64,000 bases of DNA from Gemmatimonadota bacterium (GTDB taxonomy: Bacteria > Gemmatimonadota > Gemmatimonadetes > Longimicrobiales > Gaopeijiaceae): contig SKKN01000010.1 of the NCBI GenBank assembly GCA_007121455.1, positions 1 through 64,000 on the forward strand. The letters are read 5' to 3'. This document shows positions 15,587 to 23,440 of the stretch, one piece after another. Below the pieces are notes generated by a model that ran no database searches, was not told where the DNA came from, and saw only the letters and a list, made by a program, of their open reading frames with translations. The translations under genes were made by a program, and so were the position numbers. Within the stretch, counting starts at the first letter, position 1, and each line of letters starts with the position of its first letter.

Positions 15587-16585
15587 GTGATCCCGGAACC
15601 CCTCCGTGGGGCCCTCGGTTCGGAGCTCGGGGGGACGTTCTATCTGTCCGGGGACGATAGCTACAGAAGGGAGGAAGCGGCTCGCCTTCTCGTGGAGGCG
15701 CACCTCGATCCTGCGACGCGCGACTTCAACTACGACGCACTGCGCGGGTCGGAGGTGGCCCTCGAGGATCTGGCCTCGGTCATCGCCACCCTTCCCATGA
15801 TGGCTTCGTTCCGTGTGGTCCTCCTCCGGGAAGTCGAGGCGCTCGCGTCCTCCTCCCGCGCCCGTGATCTGCTCACGGAGCTCGCCGCCTCTCCTCCTGA
15901 AGGCCTCGCCCTCATCCTTGTCAGTGGGAAGGAGTCCGGCGCAGCCTTCTACAAGAAGCTCAAGTCCTCCTCCCGATCGATCGAGTTCAAGCCCCTCGCG
16001 GCCAACGACCTTCCTCCCTGGCTCATGAAGTGGGCGGAGGAGAGGTGCGATGTGGTGCTCGAGGAGGATGCCGCCCGGGCCCTGGCCGCGGCGCTCGGAC
16101 CCGACCTGGCGCTCCTGGCGCAGGAGGTGGAGAAGCTCGCCACTCTGGAAGGGGAGGGTGGGCGGATCACCGTGAAAACCGTGGAGCAAGCGGGGACCCG
16201 GCTTCCGAAGCAGGACCGGTGGCAGTGGTTCGACCTCGTGGGGGAGCGGAGGTTCGAAGAGGCGCTCCGGGGGCTGCCCATCCTCCTTCAGCATGGTGAG
16301 AACGGAGTGGGGCTCACGATCGGACTCACCACGCACCTCCTCCGCCTCGGCCTCCTCATGGAAGGAGGGGAGAACGCCCTGGCCTCGTTCCTTCCGCACC
16401 GCCAGAAGTGGCTGGTCTCCCGCTTCAGGGCACAGGCGAAGCAGTGGCCCGAAGGTTCGGTGACCCGAGCGCTCTACGGCCTCCGGCAGGTCGACCAGCG
16501 CCTCAAGTCGAGCCCGCTCTCCGACGCCCATCACCTCGAATGCTGGATTCTGGAGCAGATGGCCGGGGCGGAGGCCGTCGCATGA
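15587..16585 (+). CDS. holA: DNA polymerase III subunit delta
   Basis: A 332-residue clamp-loader delta subunit, which opens the beta sliding clamp. The N-terminal part matches the family in pattern: FYLSGDDSYRREEAARLLVE at residues about 18-37, then the strand pattern VVLLREVEAL. As usual for delta it lacks a functional P-loop. The C-terminal helical collar region holds the FDLVGERRFEEAL and LLRLGLLME segments. GTG start, three bases after the anti-sigma gene; coupled by ATGA to copA. Confidence 0.88.
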   Translation: MIPEPLRGALGSELGGTFYLSGDDSYRREEAARLLVEAHLDPATRDFNYDALRGSEVALEDLASVIATLPMMASFRVVLLREVEALASSSRARDLLTELAASPPEGLALILVSGKESGAAFYKKLKSSSRSIEFKPLAANDLPPWLMKWAEERCDVVLEEDAARALAAALGPDLALLAQEVEKLATLEGEGGRITVKTVEQAGTRLPKQDRWQWFDLVGERRFEEALRGLPILLQHGENGVGLTIGLTTHLLRLGLLMEGGENALASFLPHRQKWLVSRFRAQAKQWPEGSVTRALYGLRQVDQRLKSSPLSDAHHLECWILEQMAGAEAVA

Positions 16586-19140
16586 CCGGGCCGCGTCCGG
16601 CTTCGCAGGCGTGGCCTGTTCTGGACCTTCCACTCTCCGGGATTCACTGTGCCGGGTGCGTGGCTACGGTCGAAGGGGCGTTGGGCCGCGCTGAAGGGGT
16701 CGAGGAGGTCAGCGTCGATCTCACCTCCGCGAATGCGCGAGTTCGGTTCGACCCGAGTCGCGTCTCTGTCTCGGATCTCGTGGAAGCCGTGCGGGGAGCC
16801 GGGTACGACGTGGACCTCGAGGTTCTGGACGCGGAGGTTACGGGGATGCACTGCGCTTCCTGCGTCGCCTCGGTCGAGAGCGCGCTTCTCGGCGTGCCGG
16901 GGGTGGCCTCCGCGGACGTCAATCTTCCGGAAGAGAGCGTCCGGCTCCGTGCGGTGGGAGGGAGCTTTGACCGCAAGGACCTGATCGCTTCGTTGGAGCG
17001 GGCGGGCTACACGCTCCGCTTCCCCGAGCAAGCCGACGCCTCCGGCTCCACGGATGCGCGGGATCAGGCTCGCGACGAGGCCCGGGAGGCCGAGGCACGA
17101 GACCTCATGCGTCGCTTCTGGGTGGGCGTCGCCCTCACCGTGCCCGTCCTGCTCTTCGGTCACCACGAATGGGTGCCGGGCCTCCGAGCGATGGAGGTGG
17201 ACGCGCTCCGGTGGCTCTGGGGGCTGAGCGGGGTGCTCACGATCCCGATCATGACGTACGTGGGGCGCCGGTTCTTCGTCGGGGGCTGGGCCGCATTCCG
17301 CCGGCGGAATGCGAACATGGATACGCTCGTTGCCCTCGGGACCGGTTCGGCGTGGGCCTATTCCACGGTCGCCGTCCTCTTCCCCGCGCTTTTTCCCGAA
17401 GGAACGGCCCACCCGTTCTACGAGGCGACGGCCGTCATCATCACGCTCGTCGTCCTGGGCCAGGCGCTCGAGGCCCGCGCGAAGGGCCGGACCTCCAGAG
17501 CGCTCCGCGCCCTGCTCGATCTGAGCCCGCGGACGGCCCAGGTGATCCGGTCCGGTGAGGAGGTCGAGGTCCCGGTCTCCGAGGTCGAGAAGGGGGATGT
17601 CCTCGTGATCCGTCCCGGAGAGCGCATCCCCGTTGACGGGGAGGTGCTCGAGGGCCGAAGCGCCGTGGACGAGGCGCTGGTCACCGGAGAGAGCATCCCG
17701 GTCGAGAAAGGCCCCGGGGACGAGGCGATCGGGGGTACCTTGAACCGGTCCGGAAGCTTCAAGATGCGGGCGACCCGGGTCGGCAAGGAGACCGTGCTCG
17801 GGCAGATCGTCGAGCTGGTTCGAGAGGCGCAGGCTTCGAAGCCGCCGATCCAGCGGATGGTCGACACGGTCTCCAGCTACTTCGTCCCGGCGGTCATGAT
17901 CGTAGCAGTCGTGACGTTCGCGGCCTGGTACACCATCGGGCCCGCCCCGTCGCTGAACTACGCGGTGGTCACCGCCGTGGCCGTTCTGGTCATCGCCTGC
18001 CCCTGCGCATTGGGACTCGCGACCCCCATCTCCGTGATGATCGCCGTGGGAAAGGCCGCAGAGAACGGCATCCTCGTCCGGAATGGAGAGGCACTCCAGA
18101 AGACCCGAAGCGTGAATACGGTAGTTCTGGACAAGACCGGAACGATCACCCGCGGAGAGCCGATGGTGACGGATGTGGTCTGCGTCGGAACGCTCGGTGA
18201 GGACGACCTTCTCCTCCTCGCGGGCTCGGCGGAGTCGGGGTCCGAGCATCCGCTCGGCTCCGCGATCGTGGACGCGGCACGGCGACGTGGATTGGAGCTC
18301 GTCCCCGTCGAGGCATTCGAGGCACGGGCCGGGAAAGGAATCGCGGTTCGCGTGCAGGGCCGTGACGTTCGAATCGGGACTGCAGCGTTCCTGAAGGAGG
18401 AAGAGGTCGACCCGTCCGCCCTGCGCGATCCCGCAGACCGGCTCGCCGAAAGCGGGAAGACCCCGGTACACGTCGCCGTAGACGGGATCGCGGTTGGCCT
18501 GGTCGCCCTCCAGGACCAGGAGAAGGAGGGATCGCGAGCGGCGATCGCGCGGCTGAGGGAAGAGGGGCTTCGCGTGATCATGCTCACGGGGGACAACGAG
18601 AGGACGGCCCGGGCGATCGCGAGTCGCGTGGGCGTGGACGAAGTGCTCGCCGAGGTCCTTCCGGAGGCGAAAGCGGATTTGATCGCGAGCCTCCAGGGGG
18701 ATGGGGGCCGGGTCGCGATGGTGGGGGACGGGATCAACGATGCCCCGGCTCTGGCACGCGCCGATGTCGGCATCGCGATCGGGTCCGGAACCGACGTCGC
18801 GATGGAGACGGCGGACATCACCCTGATGGGAGAGTCGCTGATGGGCGTGGTGCACGCCGTGGAGCTGTCTCGCGCCGCGATCCGGAACATGCGGCAGAAC
18901 CTCTTCGGAGCCTTCGTCTACAACGTGCTCGCGATTCCGGTCGCGGCGGGCCTCCTCTATCCGGTCCTGGGGCTTCTCCTGAACCCGATGATCGCAGGTG
19001 CCGCCATGGCGTTCAGCTCCGTCACGGTGGTGACGAATGCGAACCGCCTCCGATACTTCCAGCCGTCGGCGTCCCCGCCCCCATCGATCTCGTCACCTGC
19101 ACCGGCCTCCCCTCCCGCGCCGGTTCGGGGGGCCGCGTGA
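16582..19140 (+). CDS. copA: Copper-exporting P1B-type ATPase
   Basis: An 852-residue P1B-1 ATPase that pumps Cu(I) out of the cytoplasm. There are two N-terminal heavy-metal-associated domains with GIHCAGC (Cys23/Cys26) and GMHCASC (Cys91/Cys94). The membrane CPC motif is in IACPCALGLATP, the phosphorylated Asp in VLDKTGTITRGEP, SEHPLGSA binds the nucleotide, and GDGINDAPAL is the hinge. The final membrane helices YNVLAIP and AMAFSSVTVVTNANRLR match copper-specific pumps. The C-terminal tail is Pro/Ser-rich. The start at 16582 overlaps the holA stop as ATGA. Confidence 0.95.
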   Translation: MTGPRPASQAWPVLDLPLSGIHCAGCVATVEGALGRAEGVEEVSVDLTSANARVRFDPSRVSVSDLVEAVRGAGYDVDLEVLDAEVTGMHCASCVASVESALLGVPGVASADVNLPEESVRLRAVGGSFDRKDLIASLERAGYTLRFPEQADASGSTDARDQARDEAREAEARDLMRRFWVGVALTVPVLLFGHHEWVPGLRAMEVDALRWLWGLSGVLTIPIMTYVGRRFFVGGWAAFRRRNANMDTLVALGTGSAWAYSTVAVLFPALFPEGTAHPFYEATAVIITLVVLGQALEARAKGRTSRALRALLDLSPRTAQVIRSGEEVEVPVSEVEKGDVLVIRPGERIPVDGEVLEGRSAVDEALVTGESIPVEKGPGDEAIGGTLNRSGSFKMRATRVGKETVLGQIVELVREAQASKPPIQRMVDTVSSYFVPAVMIVAVVTFAAWYTIGPAPSLNYAVVTAVAVLVIACPCALGLATPISVMIAVGKAAENGILVRNGEALQKTRSVNTVVLDKTGTITRGEPMVTDVVCVGTLGEDDLLLLAGSAESGSEHPLGSAIVDAARRRGLELVPVEAFEARAGKGIAVRVQGRDVRIGTAAFLKEEEVDPSALRDPADRLAESGKTPVHVAVDGIAVGLVALQDQEKEGSRAAIARLREEGLRVIMLTGDNERTARAIASRVGVDEVLAEVLPEAKADLIASLQGDGGRVAMVGDGINDAPALARADVGIAIGSGTDVAMETADITLMGESLMGVVHAVELSRAAIRNMRQNLFGAFVYNVLAIPVAAGLLYPVLGLLLNPMIAGAAMAFSSVTVVTNANRLRYFQPSASPPPSISSPAPASPPAPVRGAA

Positions 19141-19223
19141 CGCTCGACGTCCTCCTCGTGAACGGTGGAGCCCTCCTGCTCATCGCCTGGATCATCTGGT
19201 ACTTCAAGATGGGACGGAGGTGA
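19137..19223 (+). CDS. 28-residue membrane peptide coupled to copA
   Basis: A very short open frame, GTG start overlapping the copA stop as GTGA and preceded by a GGGGGG stretch. It encodes a few N-terminal residues, one hydrophobic helix (GGALLLIAWIIWYF) and a basic end (KMGRR). In pattern it resembles the membrane anchor found at the N-terminus of small cupredoxin proteins encoded next to copA in other bacteria, but it stops where that copper domain would begin. It may be a small regulatory subunit of CopA or a truncated remnant. Coupling and the intact helix favour a real product. Confidence 0.55.
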   Translation: MTLDVLLVNGGALLLIAWIIWYFKMGRR

Positions 19224-19247
19224 GAGGACCTCGCGGTCACCTGTCCA

Positions 19248-20153
19248 TCACGGGCTCAGCCCCGGCTGGTAGTTGCCTACGAACTGGAAAAAACGTGCGA
19301 TCTCTTCCATGTTTCGAGCCCGGTAGCGGATCGTTCGCGCATCCGGCCGCTCCACGATCGGCAGGTAGCTCAGTACCTCGGCGGGGCGGTAGTTCTTGAA
19401 GGTGAGGTCGAGGACGGGCTCGTCCAGGCGGTACGGCTCGAAATCGTCGAGGCGTTCGATCGCCCGTCGCGCATGGTCCCGGATCCGAGCCTGGGCTGCT
19501 TCCGGAGTCAGGGTGCGGGCGGAGTGGAAGCCGAGGGCCTCCTTCACCACTGCTCCTTCGACATCGCCCAGGAGCTCGACCATCTCCTGGACGGTGACGT
19601 CGTCGCCGGTCACGAGAGCCACCGGAACGCCGAAATGACCTGCGATCGCGGCATTCACCCCTCCTTCGGACATGGGAATCCCATTCAGGACCACGGCTGC
19701 GTAGTTCGCGCTCGAGAAGGTGTGGGCCCGGACTCCCTCCGGGTTCGTCGCCGCAGCGTGATAGCCGATGAAGAAGGCCGCGTCGAAGCCCCCCTCCACT
19801 CCCTGCATCATGTGGAGCGGCCTCGGCCACGAACGGATGATCTCCACATCGGGAGGAAACCGCTCGATGAGAAGGTTCTGGCCGTTGCCGTGAGCGTCGG
19901 CGACCACGAAATGGGTGGCGCCGGCTTCGCGGGCCCCCTCCATCGCGGCGAGAACCTCGTCCGTCATGAACTCCCGGAAGCGGTTGTATTCGAAGCCTCC
20001 GGGCCCGAGCTGCTCGGGCGTGACCGCGCCGGCGACTCCCTCGAGGTCGACCGAGATGAAGACGCGAAGCTCCTCCCGGTTGGGGTCCGGGTCGTTGGGC
20101 TGCAACTGGGGGACGGGTGTGACGGAGGCCGCGAGGACGAGTGCGAGGAGCAT
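19248..20153 (-). CDS. dppA: Exported M55-family D-aminopeptidase
   Basis: A 301-residue DppA-type zinc peptidase, which removes N-terminal D-amino acids such as D-Ala from short peptides. The zinc ligands are conserved in SVDLEG (Asp, Glu), ADAHGNG (His), GYHAA (His) and PMSEGG (Glu). The first 19 or so residues form a short signal peptide (LLALVLAASVTP), so unlike the Bacillus cytoplasmic enzyme this one appears to be periplasmic or lipid-free secreted. It is alone on the minus strand, converging with the copA peptide and diverging from a membrane protein gene. A role in cell-wall peptide scavenging fits. Confidence 0.88.
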   Translation of the reverse strand: MLLALVLAASVTPVPQLQPNDPDPNREELRVFISVDLEGVAGAVTPEQLGPGGFEYNRFREFMTDEVLAAMEGAREAGATHFVVADAHGNGQNLLIERFPPDVEIIRSWPRPLHMMQGVEGGFDAAFFIGYHAAATNPEGVRAHTFSSANYAAVVLNGIPMSEGGVNAAIAGHFGVPVALVTGDDVTVQEMVELLGDVEGAVVKEALGFHSARTLTPEAAQARIRDHARRAIERLDDFEPYRLDEPVLDLTFKNYRPAEVLSYLPIVERPDARTIRYRARNMEEIARFFQFVGNYQPGLSP

Positions 20154-20254
20154 GAGGTCTCCCGGGTGCGGGTTCGAGGATGTGGAAGTGTCGAACGTGA
20201 AGCGATTGTGGCCCGTGGGAGTGGAAGTGGCAACAGCGTCGCGGCTGTGGGGGG

Positions 20255-20668
20255 ATGAAGCCGGTGGATCCGGAACCCGAGGAAAGCGTTCGCGTTCGCA
20301 CTCCCTATCCGCCGCTCCTGCTCTGGATCCAGGGGGGAGTGGGCGCAGTGGCCGGAGCGCTCTGGGGCCTGGTTCGCGGGGTGGCTCCCGAGTTCGTTCC
20401 CCTCACGGCGCTTGTCGGGGCTGTCGCACTTCCCGTAGCGCTCTTGATGACACCGGTGCATGGATCCCGCGGGGTCCGGGCCTTCCGGTTCGGCCTGTCC
20501 CTGGCGGTCCTCCTCACGCTCACCAGCTCCTTCGTCACCCCGGAGGAGCTCCGCACCCTGGAAGGGTTCGTGTTCGACTTCTTCCAGTTCCTCATCGGGG
20601 GCGCGCTCTTCTTCTTCATCGTCGAGCCGCGAGGGCGGGACCCGGAGGCGGAGGACGCCGGTGCGTAG
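20255..20668 (+). CDS. Small integral membrane protein of unknown function
   Basis: A 137-residue protein that I do not recognise, with about four hydrophobic helices (near residues 20-40, 48-66, 76-95 and 108-124). The ends are charged and cytoplasmic in style (PEPEESVRVR at the start, RGRDPEAED at the end). There are no conserved motifs or Cys residues. It lies between the divergent dppA gene and mutS, with 147 bases before the mutS start, so a separate transcript is possible. Confidence 0.65.
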   Translation: MKPVDPEPEESVRVRTPYPPLLLWIQGGVGAVAGALWGLVRGVAPEFVPLTALVGAVALPVALLMTPVHGSRGVRAFRFGLSLAVLLTLTSSFVTPEELRTLEGFVFDFFQFLIGGALFFFIVEPRGRDPEAEDAGA

Positions 20669-20815
20669 CGGAGCCGTCCCTCCCGGATATCCGCCCCTCG
20701 TTCGGCAACGCCCCCCGACCTTGGTTGATCGCCGCCCCCGCCCTTTCTATCCTTCACGCGGCCGCTCGCCGTGGCGGTGCCCAGCCGGCCCCAACCTCCC
20801 AACGCCTCGGACCCG

Positions 20816-23440
20816 ATGACGAGCGCTGAAGAAACGCCCCTCATGCAACAGTGGCGCGAGGTGAAATCCCGAAATCGGGACGCCCTCGTCTTCTTCCGCG
20901 TCGGGGACTTCTTCGAGCTCTTCAATGAAGATGCGCAGGAGGGGGCGCGCCTCCTCGGACTCACGCTGACCTCCCGGAACAACGGGGCGGCGGCAAAGGT
21001 CCCGATGGCCGGGGTGCCGGCGAAGGCCCTGGACGAGTACCTCGCGCGCCTCGTGGGGCTGGGGCGCCGGGCGGCAATCTGTGACCAGGTCGAAGACGCC
21101 GCCGAGGCGAAGGGCATCGTCCGGAGGGCGGTGGTGGAGACCGGCACGCCGGGCACCGTTCTGCAGGACAGTCTCCTGCAAGCCGAGCGAAACAACTTCC
21201 TGGTCGCGCTCTCCCCCCCGGAAGGAGGGCGGCTCGGTGTCGCGGCGCTCGACCTCTCCACGGGTGAAGTGATCCTTCAGGAGCTCCCCCTGGAGGAGGT
21301 CGTACCCGAGCTCGGCCGGCTCGAGGCCTCCGAGCTTCTCCTGCCCCGCTCCTCGGAGGAGGAGGGCCTCCTCCTCGACGGCGTGCCGTCCGGGGCCGCG
21401 CGGACGTACCGTGACGACTGGATCTTCGACCGGGAGGCCGGGCGCGAGGAGCTGCTCCGGCGGTACGGCGTCCAGAACCTCGACGGACTCGGTTTCCAGG
21501 CAGAGGACGGCCTCCTCATCGCCGCGGGAGGGGCGCTTGCGTCCTATGTGCGCGAGATCCAACCGGAGGGCGTAAAACATCTCCAGCCGCCGCGGATCCT
21601 CCGCCCCGGCACGGAGATGGTGCTCGACGAGATGACCCGGAGGAACCTGGAGCTCGTGGAGCCCCTTCGCGCAGGCGAGGATGCCGGTACGCTCGTCGCG
21701 GTCCTCGATGAAACCGTCACCTCGATGGGAGCGCGCCTGCTCCGGCGCTGGATTCTCCGACCCCTCGTCTCCGCGGAACCGATCTGGCGCCGGCAGGAGG
21801 CGGTGGAGGAGCTCTTCGAGGACGAGCGCCTCAGGAGAGGCCTCCGGGAGCTCCTGAAGGAGGTGGGCGACCTGGAGCGCCTCGCGGGGAAGGTCGGCGC
21901 AGCAAGGGCACAGCCGCGAGACCTCCTCGGTGTGGCTCGTTCCCTGGCGCTCCTCCCCCGGATCGGAGAAGCCCTCGAGGGAGCCCGCTCCGCGCTGCTC
22001 GTCGACCTCACGGGTGCCGACGATCTCCTCGGGGACGTGCGCGAGCTTCTCGAGGCAGCGATCGCTCCGGAGACGCCCGCGAACCTGAGCGAGGGGGGCG
22101 TGATTCGGGCGGGGTATTCCGAGGAACTCGACGAGCTCCGTTCCGTGCGCGATGGAGCGAGGGATTTCATCGCGGCTCTGCAGGTCCGGGAGAGGGAACG
22201 GACCGGGATCCATTCCCTGAAGGTCGGCTTCAACAAGGTCTTCGGGTACTACCTGGAGGTCACGAGGGCGAATCTGGACCGCGTGCCGGACGACTACGTC
22301 CGAAAGCAGACGCTCGCGAACGCGGAGCGGTATTTCACCCCCGAGCTCAAGGAGTGGGAAGAAAAGGTCACGGGGGCCGAGGAGCGGATCCTCGCTCTGG
22401 AGACGCGACTGTTCCAGGAGATCCGGAAGGAGCTGACGCAGGAGGTGCAGCGGCTCCAGGGTGCGGGTGCCCGGATCGCGCGCCTCGACGTGCTGGCCAA
22501 CCTCGCGGCGGTGGCGGCCCGTCGCGGGTACGTGCGCCCGGAGCTCCACACCGGCTTTGAGCTCGAGGTCCGTGTCGGTCGCCATCCCGTCGTGGAAACG
22601 ATGATGCCCCGGGAAGAGTTCATTCCCAACGACCTCGTCCTGGACGAGAGCAACCGAATCGTCATCCTCACGGGACCGAACATGGCGGGGAAGAGCACGG
22701 TGCTCCGTCAGATCGGGTTGATCCAGCTCCTGGCGCAGGTCGGCTCGTTCGTGCCGGCCGATCGGGCGCGCCTTCCTCTCAGTGACCGAATCTTCACCCG
22801 AGTGGGGGCCTCGGACAATCTGGCGCGGGGTCAATCCACCTTCATGGTGGAAATGAACGAGACCGCGGCCATCCTGAATTCAGCCACCCGGCGAAGCCTC
22901 GTCCTCCTCGACGAGATCGGCCGGGGGACATCGACTTACGACGGGGTATCCATCGCGTGGGCGGTGACGGAGCGGCTTCACGACGCCATCGGCGCGAAGA
23001 CGATCTTCGCCACCCACTACCACGAGCTCACCCAGCTCGGGGACCTTCTCGCGGCGGTAAAGAATATGAACGTGGTAGCTCGGGAGGCGGGCGAGGAGAT
23101 CGTCTTCCTCCGGCGCCTGGAGGAAGGAGGGGCGGATCGGTCCTACGGTATCCAGGTGGGTCGCCTCGCAGGCCTCCCGCCGGAGGTGGTCGGGAGGGCG
23201 GACGAGATCCTCCGGGAGCTCGAGGGTACGCACACGCATGGAGGGGCGGGGCTCGGACACGGAGCGAGCTCCCCCGAGCGTGACGGATCCGCTCGAAGCC
23301 AGCTTTCCCTGTTTCATGAAGAACACCCCGTAGTGGTGCGTCTGCGCACCCTCGAGCTCGAACGGATGACACCGCTCGAGGCGCTCAACACCCTGGCTGA
23401 ACTTCGGAAGGTCGCCAAAGGAAGGAGGAACGAGCCGTGA
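20816..23440 (+). CDS. mutS: DNA mismatch repair protein MutS
   Basis: An 874-residue MutS, the mismatch sensor that acts with MutL. The mismatch-probing motif is GDFFELF near the N-terminus, keeping the key Phe and Glu of F-X-E (usually FYE). The ATPase domain is complete: GPNMAGKST (P-loop), STFMVEMNETA, LLDEIGRGTSTYDG (Walker B) and ATHYHEL. The dimer helix region follows, ending in PLEALNTLAELRKV. The ATG at 20816 is chosen over GTG 20771 because it sits close to the conserved QQWREVK helix. Its stop overlaps the next start as GTGA. Confidence 0.95.
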   Translation: MTSAEETPLMQQWREVKSRNRDALVFFRVGDFFELFNEDAQEGARLLGLTLTSRNNGAAAKVPMAGVPAKALDEYLARLVGLGRRAAICDQVEDAAEAKGIVRRAVVETGTPGTVLQDSLLQAERNNFLVALSPPEGGRLGVAALDLSTGEVILQELPLEEVVPELGRLEASELLLPRSSEEEGLLLDGVPSGAARTYRDDWIFDREAGREELLRRYGVQNLDGLGFQAEDGLLIAAGGALASYVREIQPEGVKHLQPPRILRPGTEMVLDEMTRRNLELVEPLRAGEDAGTLVAVLDETVTSMGARLLRRWILRPLVSAEPIWRRQEAVEELFEDERLRRGLRELLKEVGDLERLAGKVGAARAQPRDLLGVARSLALLPRIGEALEGARSALLVDLTGADDLLGDVRELLEAAIAPETPANLSEGGVIRAGYSEELDELRSVRDGARDFIAALQVRERERTGIHSLKVGFNKVFGYYLEVTRANLDRVPDDYVRKQTLANAERYFTPELKEWEEKVTGAEERILALETRLFQEIRKELTQEVQRLQGAGARIARLDVLANLAAVAARRGYVRPELHTGFELEVRVGRHPVVETMMPREEFIPNDLVLDESNRIVILTGPNMAGKSTVLRQIGLIQLLAQVGSFVPADRARLPLSDRIFTRVGASDNLARGQSTFMVEMNETAAILNSATRRSLVLLDEIGRGTSTYDGVSIAWAVTERLHDAIGAKTIFATHYHELTQLGDLLAAVKNMNVVAREAGEEIVFLRRLEEGGADRSYGIQVGRLAGLPPEVVGRADEILRELEGTHTHGGAGLGHGASSPERDGSARSQLSLFHEEHPVVVRLRTLELERMTPLEALNTLAELRKVAKGRRNEP

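Follow-up and report, generated by a model that had tools for sequence, protein, structure and literature searches.

A probable docking part of a copper pump: a 28-residue membrane peptide encoded from the copA stop codon

Could a copper-exporting ATPase have a small membrane partner of its own? CopA is a model P1B-type ATPase and is usually treated as a one-chain pump. The question is raised by a stretch of 64,000 nucleotides from a Gemmatimonadota bacterium (contig SKKN01000010.1 of assembly GCA_007121455.1), hereafter the window, in which a frame of 28 codons starts on the stop codon of copA. A first-pass annotation, made from the letters alone, had taken this frame for a membrane peptide and suggested that it may be a small regulatory subunit of the pump. 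Here, we consider whether the frame is a gene, where else it occurs and which role fits it best. The features of the locus are as follows.

16582..19140, + strand: copA, copper P1B-type ATPase (Pfam HMA in 2 stretches, E1-E2_ATPase and Hydrolase; CPC motif in the sequence)
19137..19140, + strand: GTGA start/stop overlap of copA and the peptide frame (from the sequence)
19137..19223, + strand: 28-residue single-pass membrane peptide, GTG start, TGA stop at 19221-19223 (from the sequence, conservation in relatives and selection)
19248-20153, strand opposite to copA: M55 peptidase, the next gene after the peptide
20771-23440: mutS (by Pfam), near copA in the window region 15587-23440

The translation of 19137-19223 (+), with the GTG read as Met, is VTLDVLLVNGGALLLIAWIIWYFKMGRR, 28 amino acids followed by a stop; the 28-codon frame reads MTLDVLLVNGGALLLIAWIIWYFKMGRR. 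The copA gene, with its two HMA domains, runs from an ATG at 16582 to a TGA at 19138-19140. Since this TGA overlaps the GTG of the peptide, start and stop share the bases GTGA at 19137-19140, as had been annotated, and the 4-base overlap is seen again in many relatives. The copA ATG overlaps the stop of the preceding gene, DNA polymerase III delta, by ATGA. The single hydrophobic helix and the basic end described at first were also borne out: there is one hydrophobic stretch, whose best 17-residue Kyte-Doolittle mean is 2.26, and the five residues that remain after F23 form the basic C-terminus KMGRR. Because the M55 peptidase gene runs the other way, the peptide would be the last gene in the copA direction and not the leader of a downstream gene. 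No consensus promoter or terminator was found in 16300-19600.

Conserved short frames behind copA in relatives had been proposed as a check, and such frames were found. Pooled over 12 pairs of stand-alone peptides, in which some sequences were used more than once, pN was 0.06 and pS 0.35, and the differences at codon positions 1, 2 and 3 numbered 29, 15 and 73. Seven of the 12 pairs had fewer amino-acid changes than expected from random mutation at p < 0.05 and five did not; for the window peptide and its counterpart in genome G001, p was 0.009. Stand-alone copies are under purifying selection. The annotation had also named disrupted frames in close relatives as the result that would speak against it. 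Of the CopA relatives with the frame, the two nearest keep it unbroken, namely L008 (genome G001, CopA 76% identical, VTLDVVVVNVGALLLVGAILWYFKMGRGP) and L009 (genome G031, CopA 64% identical, VSADVLLVNLGAVVLIALIFWFFRMGG), whereas in three genomes of the same family with CopA 68-69% identical (L089, L091 and L094) it is absent altogether within 450 bases behind copA. We regard it as confirmed that the 28-residue frame is real and behaves as a gene. The claim that it escapes usual detection can be sharpened: it is a short gene outside the Pfam and NCBIfam libraries, in the searched copies of which the window peptide and 33 relatives gave matches below the cut-offs only, and no family covers them. 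Such a peptide is easily missed, because it is very short and has no model in those copies.

The helix occurs in three forms: standing alone, joined to a cupredoxin domain, or joined to an HMA domain. For a survey of their frequency, 107 CopA loci were picked for likeness to the window CopA, not for the peptide, and the 450 bases behind copA were scanned; L114, where the contig ends within copA, and the duplicates L088 and L093 were left out of this sample. The script counted 19 stand-alone, 7 cupredoxin and 1 HMA form and 80 loci without any. After correction, in which L106 was moved to the cupredoxin form on a weak match and L026 and L108 were set aside as doubtful, the counts are 17, 8, 1 and 79, with 2 doubtful. 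As 79 of the 107 sampled loci do without it, the peptide is a widespread option and not a universal subunit. In the Gemmatimonadota part of the sample, 8 of 31 loci have the stand-alone peptide; the frame lies in the same place in L008, L009, L090, L092, L095, L097 and L100, and stand-alone peptides are found in 8 genera of one family. Five more genomes of the window's family (L096, L098, L099, L101 and L103) lack the frame within 450 bases behind copA, and the same-family genomes without the peptide point to loss or late gain. By eye, a MutS-like start lies close behind copA in L009, which has the peptide, and in L096 and L099, which lack it; this mutS-side neighbourhood marks comparable sites of presence and absence.

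A profile built from 17 peptides was then searched against whole genomes. In the window's class (295 genomes), the top 15 matches (E up to 3e-6), 7 of which had been profile seeds, comprise 12 stand-alone peptides and 3 anchored cupredoxins; in 14 of the 15, copA directly precedes the match on the same strand. The fifteenth (L125, at G228:C8) is a stand-alone peptide with 296 bases to the contig end and no copA end in those bases. Among the 15 loci ranking next (E 1e-5 to 0.007), 12 contain a P-type ATPase match within their 3 kb, in most cases a copA behind the profile match. Elsewhere in Gemmatimonadota, an anchored cupredoxin was seen upstream of copA in L133, L136-L139, L141, L143 and L145, and short anchors in the same position in L135 and L140. 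In the window's own genome, the 28-residue peptide is the single profile match at E up to 1, and no such frame was found within 250 bases behind the gene at the three further CopA-like ATPase loci (L002-L004).

In the gammaproteobacterial class to which a Marinobacter belongs, a cut-off of E 1e-4 gave 72 matches, spread over 67 of the 369 genomes. Seventy directly follow copA: by tblastn, 69 are no more than 47 bases from it, and for one (L198) the copA is truncated by the end of the contig yet visible. As for the remaining two, L186 has copA 1.05 kb upstream of the match, and L155 (G412:C64) is an anchored cupredoxin with the same helix and no copA match in its 3-kb locus. Short stand-alone frames make up 41 of the 72, and the other 31 continue for 114-143 residues; the cupredoxin motif Cys...CxM is present in 29 of these 31, and Pfam Cupredoxin_1 matches all five longer frames tested, including both without the motif. 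The stand-alone form occurs, for example, in Marinobacter zhejiangensis (L024) and Vreelandella titanicae (L034). Two Marinobacter loci (L020:5668-6114 and L024) have a DUF411 protein, which we take to be CopG-like, about 130 bases after copA and the peptide. The phylum of a Rhodothermus gave matches in 12 of 247 genomes, its own included: 5 anchors joined to HMA (L229-L233), 6 anchored cupredoxins, of which L239 has no copA in the locus, and one split case (L238), whose anchor and HMA domain do not share a frame. Matches in the phylum of an Anaerolineales (5 of 201 genomes, its own included) are all anchored cupredoxins. The order of a Siccibacter gave 28 matches in 27 of 148 genomes; all 20 loci examined there lie behind copA, comprising 3 stand-alone forms, 16 with the cupredoxin motif and 1 shortened (L259).

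In public plasmid records, one stand-alone peptide used as query matched genes annotated as cupredoxin or plastocyanin, a single hypothetical protein and a few places without annotation, and another gave no match. A candidate place in Acinetobacter (L227, E 6) was dropped, since no such peptide is there.

Which part of these proteins is conserved? For the comparison, 65 unique stand-alone peptides (the doubtful L042 included, L238 left out) and 62 unique cupredoxin-fused anchors were aligned in the register of the motif W[WYF][FW], which is present in every row. Counted from its first Trp, Asn at -12 is found in 58 of 63 stand-alone and 44 of 57 fused rows, Gly or Ala at -9 in 63/65 and 56/62, Phe at +2 in 64/65 and 61/62, and Trp at +3 in 56/65 and 60/62, while Ile or Val at -2 and Trp at 0 are invariant in both sets; since the rows came from a profile search, part of this conservation is due to how they were chosen. 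The window peptide meets the family pattern N-x(2)-[GA] ... I-x-W-[WYF]-F with N9, A12, I19, W21, Y22 and F23, and differs at the aromatic end, with Tyr at +1 and Lys at +3 (WYFK, where most relatives have WWFW). Per-position conservation in 64 stand-alone rows (L238 and L042 left out) and the 62 fused rows is correlated with r 0.93. As judged from these alignments, it is the helix, with or without the chaperone domain, that is the conserved part.

The conservation is also one-sided. Over the core from -14 to -1 it follows the helical period, with a peak at 104 degrees (permutation p 0.002 for stand-alone and 0.0004 for fused rows); once the aromatic end is added, the helical moment loses significance (p 0.06 and 0.10). 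By arithmetic, at 100 degrees per residue, positions -12, -9, -5, -2 and +2 fall in an 80-degree sector, and the corresponding face of the window peptide is N9, A12, I16, I19 and F23. The net charge on the N side is positive in none and negative in 24 of the 65 stand-alone peptides, and on the C side positive in 47, zero in 10 and negative in 8, some first residues being cut by the profile match. By the positive-inside rule, such charges would put the C-terminus on the cytosolic side, together with the chaperone domain where relatives have one. Cys, Met and His are not abundant at any position (at most 11 of 64), and the peptide itself is therefore no copper relay.

How the forms are related was followed on a FastTree of 175 CopA pieces with the states none, stand-alone, cupredoxin and HMA, from which the doubtful L026 and L108 and 8 CopA rows under 250 residues had been removed. 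The four states change at least 24 times, and presence and absence at least 9 times, on this tree, several branches of which are weakly supported and in which presence is over-sampled because peptide-bearing gammaproteobacterial loci were added for having matches. Throughout the gammaproteobacterial clade, stand-alone and cupredoxin forms alternate. That the chaperone domain changed repeatedly while the helix stayed suggests a function for the helix itself.

With fair, by no means full, confidence, we read the peptide as an accessory subunit of CopA, a single-pass inner-membrane microprotein that probably docks on the pump. It would be made from the copA message by translational coupling and span the membrane with the short N-terminus outside and the basic C-terminus on the cytosolic side, the aromatic residues being at the cytosolic end of the helix. 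The conserved face N9/A12/I16/I19/F23 would pack against the membrane helices of CopA, and the peptide may stabilise or tune the pump. In other lineages the same helix would carry a chaperone of the cupredoxin (CupA) or HMA (CopZ) type and hold it at the pump; at the window locus the chaperone is missing and the docking helix alone would have been kept. The accessory-subunit reading draws on the position next to copA, the selection, the helix kept without a domain, the one-sided conservation, the charges and the precedents of small partners. It is weakened by the 79 of 107 sampled CopA genes that do without the peptide, some of them in the window's own family, and by the loci L155, L186 and L125, which are not right behind copA. 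The first-pass interpretation holds in part: the short gene, its single helix and its likeness to the cupredoxin anchor are supported, and a regulatory role is conjectural.

The main rival is that the peptide sets the amount of CopA without being a permanent subunit, either protecting the pump from a membrane protease such as FtsH or delivering it to one, as MgtU/MgtS and MgtR do for MgtB/MgtA. We consider this unlikely. In many relatives the helix bears cupredoxin or HMA domains, which fits tethering at the pump better, and we know of no metallochaperone anchored by an MgtR-type peptide. In favour of the rival are the many lineages in which absence of the peptide is tolerated, and the equal size of peptides co-made with a P-type ATPase, as described in PMC10710835. 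A turnover role would share the binding step with the subunit reading, and the two are not exclusive.

Alternatively, the peptide could be a relic: a CupA-type chaperone was lost and its anchor, still translated by coupling, has no job. The interleaving of stand-alone and fused forms on the CopA tree agrees with this, and so does L206 (G384:C21), where a scrap of 15 residues from a cupredoxin C-terminus lies about 22 codons behind the peptide stop (E 2e-4) and which reads as a snapshot of recent chaperone-domain loss. However, no cupredoxin scrap was found at E up to 0.1 in the up to 1.2 kb scanned behind each of the other 76 stand-alone matches, duplicates included, and the same scan behind the window peptide gave none. 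A jobless remnant would also hardly be under the purifying selection seen above, persist across the 8 genera of one Gemmatimonadota family and be constrained about as strongly as the fused anchors. We therefore hold the relic to be improbable.

Less probable still is an assembly factor like CcoS, serving copper delivery to an oxidase. CcoS too follows a P1B-type ATPase gene (L225) and its helix ends with Trp, and 15 columns can be aligned; however, with an hhalign probability of 20% and E 0.001 over these 15 columns only, homology was not accepted. The peptide is without the C-terminal GQxDDxEGPAHRIL block, Pfam FixS matches none of 34 family members and finds nothing in G000, G006 and G014, and in six genomes (G304, G624, G614, G678, G560 and G332) both proteins are present at different places.

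Finally, that the frame is open by chance, or is the tail of a copA product made by frameshifting, can be dismissed as extremely improbable: although the G+C-rich window has many shadow frames and a G run precedes the GTGA overlap, sequence, place and length are conserved across phyla, of the 171 frames of 20-45 aa that open at ATGA/GTGA/TTGA sites in the window (973 sites, both strands counted) 2 reach a 17-residue hydropathy mean of 1.9, and the peptides of relatives start anywhere from the copA-stop overlap to about 55 bases behind it with their own start codon, which does not allow a shared frameshift.

Returning to the accessory-subunit reading, a wider proposal can be put forward more tentatively, with chances that we place just short of even. 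In large parts of Gemmatimonadota and Gammaproteobacteria, CopA may be a two-part pump, the conserved core of whose second part is an old, small docking helix and not the chaperone; a cupredoxin, an HMA domain or nothing would be plugged into it or unplugged, and anchored chaperones like CupA would work plugged onto this helix. In any case, many distant bacteria keep an unannotated peptide in the same place behind copA, by itself or fused to a copper carrier. P-type ATPases with short membrane partners are already known, and for a copper-exporting P1B-type ATPase none was found in the PubMed Central material, Pfam and NCBIfam searched; in particular, the PubMed Central titles, abstracts and passages retrieved contained no stand-alone short membrane peptide behind copA.

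How does the window peptide compare with known small proteins? CcoS/FixS is, like it, a short membrane protein encoded behind a copper ATPase gene, but is longer and, in aligned CcoS, has the C-terminal block that the peptide lacks. KdpF is described as a one-helix accessory subunit of the P1A-type ATPase KdpFABC (PMC10654040) and as 30 aa long in mycobacteria (PMC3618439), and the window peptide would resemble it in this role. However, the pump of KdpF is of another class and there is no sequence match: in Pfam and NCBIfam, the KdpF family model gave no match at E up to 1 with 34 members of the peptide family. MgtR, MgtU and MgtS, 28-31 residue peptides that act on Mg2+ P-type ATPases and are described as acting on ATPase turnover (PMC10710835), are alike in size and in the kind of presumed partner; in the comparison through family libraries, no model of theirs claimed the peptide.

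The closest likeness is to the copA-linked chaperones of the CupA type. The HMA-bearing form, rarer than the cupredoxin form, is a fusion of the anchor helix with a CopZ-like HMA domain and directly follows copA in Rhodothermus-like genomes (L086:5445-5774 and L229-L233). These natural fusions mirror an artificial chimera of CopZ and the CupA helix, which is reported to be unable to replace CupA (PMC7558416). A fusion of CopA itself with the peptide, suspected in a Rokubacteria genome (G311), was rejected, because the 724-residue open frame is a shadow frame and an anchored cupredoxin begins there in another frame; no CopA-anchor fusion was noticed among the loci surveyed. CupA is described in Streptococcus pneumoniae and only a few other streptococci (PMC7558416), and eight putative rhizobial homologues with a similar N-terminal helix are reported (PMC5552934); in the profile survey, anchored cupredoxins stand beside copA in several phyla. 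Among solved structures, CupA (2mry, 4f2e) is closest to the cupredoxin protein of L010 (E 3e-25), the one relative so compared, which also matches a cation-transporting ATPase chain (4f2f, E 9e-12). CupA of S. pneumoniae, a membrane-anchored cupredoxin that serves CopA as chaperone, has a single N-terminal membrane helix; the solved chains are its soluble part, and the likeness was judged here on the other copA-linked anchors. Unlike these chaperones, the window peptide has neither a cupredoxin domain nor copper ligands. Its gene, however, stands beside copA as theirs do, through the GTGA overlap, and its helix has the same conserved residues in the same place as the 62 unique fused anchors, so that the first impression of an anchor of copA-linked cupredoxins without the copper domain proved apt.
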